Part shown: positions 27,872-29,315 of the stretch, in pieces
How the letters are laid out: every line of letters starts with the position of its first letter
Position numbering within the stretch: position 1 is the stretch's first letter
IMG/VR virus record: IMGVR_UViG_3300029448_000127
Span: 1 to 38,330 of that record
DNA from: a virus
DNA length: 38,330 bases
Direction: 5' to 3' (one strand)
Made by a program: the position numbers and the translations under genes
Notes under the pieces: model-generated
Database searches by the model: none
What the model was told of the DNA's origin: nothing
What the model saw: the letters and a program-made list of their open reading frames with translations, nothing else

Positions 27872-29128
27872 TTATATAAGTCTGTTAATTAAAGTTACAA
27901 AAGCTTTTGCAGCACAATCTGGTACTATTCCATTCCCCAATGACCTAAGTCTGTCCAGCCTATGGGCAGACCCATTAGTTGCTCGACCCAATCTGGATTC
28001 AATCTTCCAGTTGCTTTTCCGCAATGACCTGCTATCTCCTCCTCCAGATTCGATTTGTTCCGATTCGCCAAACGATCTCGATTTTCCTCGGTAATCTTTG
28101 GGTGTACTTTGTTTGCCCTCGGTGTCGCCCACGACTCTTGGCTCTTCCCAATCGTGCTGTGGTTCATTTGGTCTAGCTGGGTATTGCATGATTCTACCGC
28201 ATCTCTGAGTTTTGCTCCAAAGAATTGGTTGCTTTTGTAACGCTTGCTCCGAAACCCTTTCTTCGTCATCTCTGTCTCGATCCGACCGCCTTCTGCGTCC
28301 GATGTCCTCGGAGTTGGGTAATTCATTACATCCTTGTATATCTGTACTGACTCCTCGTCCACTTGTTCCCTCAAGTTCGATGGGGTTTTTCTGCCCTTCC
28401 GACTTGTGGTTGCTTGTTTTATCAACGCCTCTCGACTTCTTAATGGCAACATGTCCATTGTGCTTGGAGTAGCCCAATTCTTCACTTGTTCTGTTAAGCA
28501 TCCCTCTATGTATTTCCTGCCTATGCTCTTTCTGTATGCTATCCTCTTTTTTATTCCCTCCTCTGTCCTTTCTATGTCTATCGTTGTAGGCGATATCCAT
28601 GCCAAGGATGAAGACTCGTTTTCTCTGGTGTGGTGCGCCAACTTCACTCGCTGAGAATATTCCTGCCGTTGTTCGGTAACCCATGCTTTCCATTGTTCGC
28701 AAGACATATTTGAGAACAGATTCTCCTTCTCTTGTTTTGGAGGTAATAATGCCCGGAACATTTTCTGCGAATATAATTCTTGGCTTGCATTGCTTAATTC
28801 CTTTTGCGATATGTGGGAATAGGTGTCTTGGATCTTCAGTTCCTTGACGATTTCCTGCAACAGAGAATGGTTGGCACGGAAAACCAAAGGACATGATGTC
28901 CACCTTTCCAAGAAACTTTTTGTATGGGAAGGTTTTAACGTCCGTATAGATAGGGGCTTCATGTAACAGATGCTCTTCCATCTTTTTAACCAAGTTGCAA
29001 ATTTGGTAAAGTTCGATTTCACAACAAGCGATTTCTCGCAGAGTCGGCAAAACTTTTCTGAGTCCAAGCCCAATGCCTTCGTATCCGCTACATAAGCTGA
29101 GATGTGTAATTGTTTTGGAAGTATCCAC
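27872..29128 (-). CDS. DNA cytosine-5 methyltransferase (phage Dcm-like)
   Basis: The protein has 418 aa and starts at GTG 29128. It transfers a methyl group from SAM to C5 of cytosine in DNA. Motif I is SLCSGYEGIG (11-20), motif IV GFPCQPFS with catalytic Cys85, motif VI ENVPG (122-126), motif VIII QRKRVFIL (168-175) and motif X LGNGIVP (397-403), so it should be active. Residues about 180-380 are a polar, low-order target recognition region. The likely role is protection against host restriction. The gene has clearly higher GC than its neighbours and few stops in any frame, which suggests transfer. A second, full-length frame overlaps it (27925-29130). The ATG of that frame and this GTG overlap as ATGTG, directly after the upstream stop. 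Confidence 0.88.
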   Translation of the reverse strand: MDTSKTITHLSLCSGYEGIGLGLRKVLPTLREIACCEIELYQICNLVKKMEEHLLHEAPIYTDVKTFPYKKFLGKVDIMSFGFPCQPFSVAGNRQGTEDPRHLFPHIAKGIKQCKPRIIFAENVPGIITSKTREGESVLKYVLRTMESMGYRTTAGIFSASEVGAPHQRKRVFILGMDIAYNDRHRKDRGGNKKEDSIQKEHRQEIHRGMLNRTSEELGYSKHNGHVAIKKSRGVDKTSNHKSEGQKNPIELEGTSGRGVSTDIQGCNELPNSEDIGRRRRSDRDRDDEERVSEQALQKQPILWSKTQRCGRIMQYPARPNEPQHDWEEPRVVGDTEGKQSTPKDYRGKSRSFGESEQIESGGGDSRSLRKSNWKIESRLGRATNGSAHRLDRLRSLGNGIVPDCAAKAFVTLINRLI

Positions 29129-29130
29129 AT
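27925..29130 (-). CDS. Alternative-frame ORF (401 aa) across the methyltransferase gene
   Basis: This frame is open for 401 codons from ATG 29130, which overlaps the upstream TAA (TAATG), so it has the better-looking start of the two. Other out-of-frame ORFs in the window reach only 139 codons. Its second half carries sequence I associate with real phage proteins: GCLTEQVKNWATPSTMDMLP, YPTPRTSDAEGG, GAKLRDAVE and LNPDWVEQLMGLPIGWTDL (378-395), the end of many methylase target domains. Its first half (SEKFCRLCEKSLVVKSN and WVTEQRQEYSQR) also recalls recurrent phage hypothetical proteins. It may be a dual-coded protein, a frameshift-accessible C-terminus, or only a conserved shadow of the methylase gene. 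Confidence 0.4.
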   Translation of the reverse strand: MWILPKQLHISAYVADTKALGLDSEKFCRLCEKSLVVKSNFTKFATWLKRWKSICYMKPLSIRTLKPSHTKSFLERWTSCPLVFRANHSLLQEIVKELKIQDTYSHISQKELSNASQELYSQKMFRALLPPKQEKENLFSNMSCEQWKAWVTEQRQEYSQRVKLAHHTRENESSSLAWISPTTIDIERTEEGIKKRIAYRKSIGRKYIEGCLTEQVKNWATPSTMDMLPLRSREALIKQATTSRKGRKTPSNLREQVDEESVQIYKDVMNYPTPRTSDAEGGRIETEMTKKGFRSKRYKSNQFFGAKLRDAVESCNTQLDQMNHSTIGKSQESWATPRANKVHPKITEENRDRLANRNKSNLEEEIAGHCGKATGRLNPDWVEQLMGLPIGWTDLGHWGME

Positions 29131-29315
29131 TAATCTTCTCCTGCTTCTAATTTTATATCTAGTTTTAATCTAGCAAGGTTTAATAAATGTTCTTCCCATT
29201 TATCTGATTCTATTCCCCAAAGAGAGTTCTTACGATTATCTCTTGCTCTAACTAATGCAAACGAAACTGCCTGCATGATATCCTCTACGTCTTTATATGT
29301 CATATTGTTTTTCAT
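29130..29315 (-). CDS. Small helical hypothetical protein
   Basis: The product has 61 aa, helical, with SFALVRARDNRKNSLWG followed by KWEEHLLNLARLKLDIK. The stop overlaps the ATG of the alternative frame of the methyltransferase gene. No family was recognised. It lies between the PD-(D/E)XK nuclease and the methyltransferase in the early operon. Confidence 0.55.
   Translation of the reverse strand: MKNNMTYKDVEDIMQAVSFALVRARDNRKNSLWGIESDKWEEHLLNLARLKLDIKLEAGED

Follow-up and report, generated by a model that had tools for sequence, protein, structure and literature searches.

Does a viral cytosine methyltransferase gene that stands open almost from end to end in two frames of one strand encode one protein or two, and, if two, how do they divide the enzyme between them? 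The gene lies in a viral contig, IMG/VR record IMGVR_UViG_3300029448_000127, which was analyzed over its whole length of 38,330 nucleotides (nt; the window). Frame A runs from a GTG at 29128 to 27872 on the minus strand and encodes 418 amino acids (aa), and frame B, on the same strand, runs from an ATG at 29130 to 27925 and encodes 401 aa. The register of B is +1 relative to A, one base further on, and the sequence ATGTG (29126..29130) merges both start codons, ATG for B and GTG for A. The runner-up among out-of-frame open reading frames (ORFs) in the window reaches 139 aa. An earlier note, made from the sequence, had described the two frames and their starts in exactly these terms. We find that both frames are protein-coding and under purifying selection across the overlap. 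Our central result is that A and B are, as predicted from sequence comparison, complementary, non-overlapping parts of one C5 cytosine methyltransferase.

Purifying selection on both frames

Synonymous recoding of frame A left frame B open in none of 20,000 trials; the mean number of frame-B stops expected was 11.2 when A's own codons were reshuffled and 21.9 with the codon usage of the window. Substitutions in 52 distinct loci were then counted in identical context and sorted by their effect in A and B (N, nonsynonymous; S, synonymous; frame A first), with ratio pairs given as dNN/dNS then dSN/dSS for B and as dNN/dSN then dNS/dSS for A. Over the whole overlap, frame B had a dSN/dSS of 0.38 (approximate interval, 0.35-0.43) and a dNN/dNS of 0.30 (0.27-0.33), and frame A had a dNN/dSN of 0.19 and a dNS/dSS of 0.24. 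Two neighboring genes read at the same shift, used as controls, gave dSN/dSS values of 1.01-1.39 and dNN/dNS values of 1.26-1.45, and a third-frame control gave 1.58 and 1.88, respectively. A dN/dS-type test in both frames across homologues, suggested in the earlier note, thus found both of them constrained.

Stops in frame B are also avoided. Synonymous changes that create a stop in B stood at 0.02 of other such changes (controls, 0.73-1.2), and none was seen in the motif I-VIII and variable regions. Frequent frame-B stops among homologues of frame A, which the same note had named as counting against its proposal, did not appear: in 79 loci picked on frame A only, 13,643 catalytic codons contained 3 frame-B stops versus 226.5 expected from synonymous shuffling, and the third frame over the same codons contained 587. 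Substitution patterns, stop avoidance, and the sampling of loci on A only strongly support genuine dual coding, one of the meanings that had been put forward.

The features of the locus are listed below, with the basis of each in parentheses.

27872..29128, minus strand: frame A, predicted alpha polypeptide (PF00145, TIGR00675, AlphaFold2 [AF2], M.HhaI match)
27925..29130, minus strand: frame B, predicted beta polypeptide with probable recognition modules and motif IX (phrog_1008, frame-B purifying selection, homologues)
29126..29130, minus strand: overlapping starts ATGTG (start-codon conservation in 57 distinct loci)
29138..29142, minus strand: AGGAG, Shine-Dalgarno-like, 7 nt ahead of the frame-B ATG (sequence)
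28595..29122, minus strand: frame A motifs I-VIII, residues 3-178, with the N-terminal half of frame B on the same bases (substitution ratios)
28184..28594, minus strand: frame A residues 179-315, predicted disordered, near neutral, kept open (ratios; predicted local distance difference test, pLDDT)
28321..28476, minus strand: frame B module 1, WATPSTMDMLPL..NLREQV.., type T1 (module clustering)
28132..28320, minus strand: frame B module 2, YPTPRTSDAEGG..KLRDAV.., type T2 (module clustering)
28003..28131, minus strand: frame B module 3, WATPRANKVHP..NLEEEIAGHCGKATGR, type T4 (module clustering)
28124..28183, minus strand: frame A conserved segment YPARPNEPQHDWEEPRVV, residues 316-335 (invariant residues, ratios)
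27946..28002, minus strand: frame B motif IX LNPDWVEQLMGLPIGWTDL, residues 377-395, where frame A reads ESRLGRATNGSAHRLDRLR (ratios, profile matches)
27878..27943, minus strand: frame A motif X, SLGNGIVPDCAAKAF.., with the stop of B at 27925 falling inside it (ratios, AF2 helix)

Along these segments the constraint changes hands, from A over the catalytic half to B over the recognition half and to A again at motif X. In the region of motifs I-VIII, the ratios were 0.16/0.12 for A and 0.51/0.37 for B; in the variable stretch at frame A residues 179-315, they were 0.91/0.73 and 0.38/0.31. The segment YPARPNEPQHDWEEPRVV, in which Q324, E328, and R331 are invariant, gave 0.19/0.14 for A. In the motif IX stretch, the ratios for B were 0.01/0.20, with 98 NN versus 4,804 NS changes. 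Past the stop of B (residues 402-416), a region that serves as an internal control, the ratios were 1.80/1.11 for B and 0.17/0.10 for A.

Conservation of the second frame and its start

A search with frame B returned 80 viral loci, all of which contain both frames, at identities down to about 27%. Both are full length in phage C75C1 (OQ984151), with identities of 42% for A and 37% for B, and loci chosen by conserved frame-A peptides alone have a long open frame B nearly throughout. The +1 relation was also found in phages of Paenibacillus, Microbacterium, Microcystis, Synechococcus, Klebsiella, and Escherichia, in a Paenibacillus polymyxa plasmid, and in Pseudomonadota genomes (phrog_1008 is present in 27 of 398 of the latter). 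No stand-alone beta gene was found among the fetched Pseudomonadota phrog_1008 loci, which share their DNA with an A frame except at L213, and a scan with a Microcystis phage protein gave no matches. Well over 100 related phage genes share the arrangement, and they are annotated as one gene almost without exception. In one locus (L035:4003-4887), a single in-frame stop was observed in the frame-A linker, where the near-identical L034 reads through.

The frame-B start codon stands at an equivalent position in almost all homologous loci. Among 57 distinct loci, it is ATG in 50, GTG in 5, and TTG in 1. The frame-A GTG lies 2 nt after the start of B in 53 of them; in the remaining 4, an in-frame ATG precedes the frame-B start by 1-10 nt. 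Upstream of the start, 33 of the 57 loci have a Shine-Dalgarno-like word, versus 7.3 expected.

Predicted division of one enzyme between two frames

The large domain of ordinary C5 enzymes holds all motifs, X included, except IX, which sits with the recognition region in the small domain. Frame A is predicted to be the large domain of such an enzyme. It matches PF00145 (E value, 7.6e-37) as well as TIGR00675, and it carries motifs I-VIII and X, with I, IV (PCQ), VI (ENV), and VIII in order and with P84 C85 Q86 and E122 N123 V124 invariant. Its AF2 model is confident at residues 5-190 and 401-417, the latter being the motif X helix (pLDDT, 93-95); over most of residues 213-397, predicted to be disordered, pLDDT is below 50. 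The nearest fold in the PDB is that of M.HhaI (E value, 7.7e-14). The earlier note had credited frame A with all C5 motifs, which holds for I-VIII and X but fails for motif IX (LNPDWVEQLMGLPIGWTDL), found in frame B only, so that IX and X are not on one chain at this locus. Across the 150 loci with a detectable motif IX, none has it in frame A, and 149 have it in frame +1, the exception being the frameshifted L052. In that locus (L052:4001-5200), both frames break soon after motif VIII and resume shifted, with IX in +2 and X in +1; the break is one indel and marks either decay of this copy or an error in sequencing. In P. polymyxa plasmid pAP1 (L089:2254-3744), motif IX is followed in frame B by another, short copy of itself, NPAWVECLMGFPLGWT, as if the recognition end had been duplicated, and L126 likewise has two copies.

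Separate searches of the two frames, also suggested earlier, placed A in PF00145 and B in phrog_1008 (E value, 5.5e-16) but returned no Pfam match for B. Searching Pfam, NCBIfam, and the PDB with B or with its C terminus gave nothing or weak hits, apart from matches of a motif IX-X profile to DRM2. Between motifs VIII and IX, each B carries 0-7 units that start with W-x-T-P or a similar sequence. The types of these modules recur in varied positions and combinations, such as T1-T2-T4 at the window locus, T2-T1-T6-T4 at L004, and T1-T3-T1-T0-T4 at L010. Judged by position and shuffling, the modules are probably target-recognition units, and in both respects they appear similar to the sets of recognition units in multispecific phage methylases. 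The second half of B had already been described as having the style of methylase target domains; a recognition region probably does lie there, yet it would not be a second or alternative domain, since it supplies the part that A lacks.

When aligned to single-chain phage methyltransferases, the frame-A profile covers columns 4-189 (E value, 1.7e-46), the frame-B profile covers columns 250-363 (E value, 1.2e-7), and the IX-X profile covers columns 343-397 (E value, 1.9e-15). In single-chain enzymes of mycobacteriophages and Actinomyces phage, one frame encodes motifs I-VIII, the P-T-P modules, and motifs IX and X; the +1 frames of single-chain relatives contain 119 stops in 4,710 codons despite a mostly high guanine-cytosine content. 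The best PDB matches of the IX-X profile are plant DRM2 methyltransferases, aligned in register (LNPDWVEQLMGLP over LEPDEVEMLLGFP and RVDRLRLLGN over RTDRYKSLGN). A mosaic was observed in Gordonia phage Gudmit (L221:1369-2754), where P-T-P modules come first in the +1 frame and are followed in the main frame by more modules, an IX-like segment, and X; it is possibly intermediate between the split and single-chain forms.

Motif X lies in frame A in 135 loci and in frame +1 in 9, namely L066, L069, L071, L076, and five further loci. In the four named loci, A ends shortly past motif VIII, 11-18 stops follow in its frame, and B continues through IX and X in one frame; the IX-X profile represents this end of B. 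On the frame-A tree, which was built with FastTree and has some long branches, motif X changes frame 8 times, at least 4 of them forced by supported branches. Another locus (L064:4001-5566) has an ORF in the third frame between the frame-B motifs IX and X, HNH/zinc-ribbon-like by eye; a homing-type insertion seems to have entered the methylase gene there without closing frame B.

Collectively, these findings make it very likely that the locus encodes a frame-split, two-polypeptide C5 cytosine DNA methyltransferase from two nearly coextensive genes on the same strand, working like M.EcoHK31I or M.AquI. The alpha polypeptide (A, from the GTG) would fold as the catalytic large domain, comprising motifs I-VIII, a disordered linker, and the motif X helix, and the beta polypeptide (B, from the ATG two bases earlier and the same ribosome-binding region) would supply the small domain, a row of W-x-T-P modules with motif IX. 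The two would be translated separately from the overlapping starts and would assemble in trans, and the assembled methylase may mark phage DNA, probably at several targets, protecting the phage's own DNA against host restriction. Rather than being a de novo gene, the C-terminal half of beta may be what was originally the enzyme's own second half, shifted into the +1 frame, each half of the enzyme now being overprinted by an extension of the other. It is also likely, if less firmly so, that a large phage-borne clade of C5 methylases shares this reciprocal overprinting of one ancestral enzyme over about 1.2 kb, with IX fixed in +1 and X switching repeatedly, with beta as a shuffled multi-specificity subunit whose modules keep both frames open, and with most copies carrying an unannotated second gene.

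Several points weigh against this interpretation. It assigns no role to the N-terminal half of frame B, which has no match among solved structures. The AF2 model of beta alone is poor (mean pLDDT, 57.6; predicted template modeling score, 0.23). DNA binding by the modules is deduced from position and shuffling only, and the match of the IX-X profile to DRM2 (E value, 0.011) is weak by itself. Furthermore, substitutions were counted with our own script in the style of OLGenie, and the intervals were resampled by sequence from loci that are related and are therefore approximate.

One alternative, which we consider quite improbable, is that programmed ribosomal frameshifting joins A (motifs I-VIII) to B (modules and IX) and then, in loci of the window type, to A again (X), giving one chain. 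The joined order A-B-A is that of the single-chain relatives, a single +1 shift would be enough in loci like L066, and in L064 frame A ends in CCC TGA, a plausible +1 site. We nevertheless disfavor it on several grounds. The start codon of B is its own, is conserved, and is accompanied by a Shine-Dalgarno-like sequence, and B is constrained over the catalytic half, where a frameshift product would be translated in A. In addition, the stop contexts and positions of A vary among loci, no slip site is common to the loci where A ends early, and the window type would require two shifts in opposite directions. A frameshift yielding a second target domain, as the earlier note had entertained, is not supported, on the same observations.

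It is very improbable that the frames have two independent functions, A being a complete methylase on its own and B an overprinted protein unrelated to it, with a role such as anti-restriction or regulation. The lack of a known relative for the N-terminal half of B would fit such a protein. However, A is without motif IX and is near neutral and predicted to be disordered in its middle, and the C-terminal part of B matches the recognition region and IX of single-chain enzymes and takes motif X as well in several loci. Finally, the proposal that frame B does not code and is a shadow, which codon usage and constraint on frame A keep open, could draw on the missing Pfam match, on an N-terminal half that matches nothing solved, and on partial +1 ORFs over ordinary methylase genes too (e.g., in Streptococcus phage 5093), but it is rejected as exceedingly improbable by the substitution patterns and stop avoidance, with their control genes and internal control, by the many stops in the +1 frames of single-chain relatives, and by the invariance of B rather than A at motif IX.

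Comparison with known systems

If the frame-split methyltransferase is correct, public annotation misses one subunit, and the second subunit would explain why an inactive methylase may result when only the annotated gene is cloned. The locus would also offer a testable example from nature of one protein divided over two frames, of which single-chain, split, and overlapping forms are all extant. About 400 codons of same-strand dual coding, conserved in more than 100 viral loci and also in prophages and plasmids, form an unusually long and well-supported overlap. In this clade, phrog_363 (A) and phrog_1008 (B), both labeled DNA methyltransferase, look like the alpha and beta frames of one locus. 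In the open literature, with subscription papers mostly outside the search, we found no paper on the phage-wide pattern, the dual selection, or the relation of the two frames as complementary halves.

Lee et al. are said to have placed the second gene of M.EcoHK31I, in 1995, inside the first and in another frame. M.EcoHK31I (YGGCCR) is a two-polypeptide enzyme whose larger chain bears motifs I-VIII and X together with the predicted recognition domain and whose second chain bears IX (PMC3404938). By motif layout, the window locus is alike in having I-VIII and X on the large chain and IX on the second. It differs in placing the probable recognition modules on the second chain, the matching part of A being near neutral and predicted to be disordered, and in that the pair overlaps nearly totally, is phage-borne, and is apparently an orphan methylase. 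M.AquI is also a two-polypeptide enzyme, split after motif VIII with IX and X on the smaller chain (PMC3404938). It is resembled by L066, L069, L071, and L076 and by gp90/gp89 of Mycobacterium phage Artemis2UCLA, whereas the window locus has X on the larger chain and genes that overlap almost fully. The Artemis2UCLA locus (L224:1489-2485) has two annotated DNA methylase genes in partial +1 overlap, gp90 with motifs I-VIII and gp89 with modules, IX, and X, an AquI-like split.

Among phages, total overlap of C5 methylases in different frames has been described for the Streptococcus thermophilus 5093 group, for Streptococcus pneumoniae phage MM1, and for Tn5252, and the passages on these pairs give no selection test or mechanism (PMC5601072). 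Phage 5093 itself was rejected as a total overlap: at its locus (L217:6067-7026), the main frame contains both IX and X, stops break up the +1 frame, and the enzyme is a single-frame one, unlike that of the window locus. Paenibacillus phage Bloom (BLOOM_56/57) and Escherichia phage K1ind2 (ORF29/28) have the same +1 relation, with IX in the second frame and X in the first, but their second ORF is shorter and nested, whereas that of the window locus starts two bases before the first. The closest named phage relative is C75C1, whose annotation covers frame A only. The gene neighborhood, in which the methylase is accompanied by genes for DnaB helicase, an exonuclease, Erf, and endonuclease VII, resembles that of C75C1 in its replication genes. 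The single-chain mycobacteriophage methylases McProf gp6 and Moonbeam gp69 are homologous to A plus B but occupy one reading frame.

Overlapping C5-methylase pairs in a few phages and motif IX on the second chain of M.EcoHK31I were thus already known. What is new here is the near-total overlap, the dual selection, the breadth of the arrangement, the switching of motif X between frames at least 4 times, and the modular beta.
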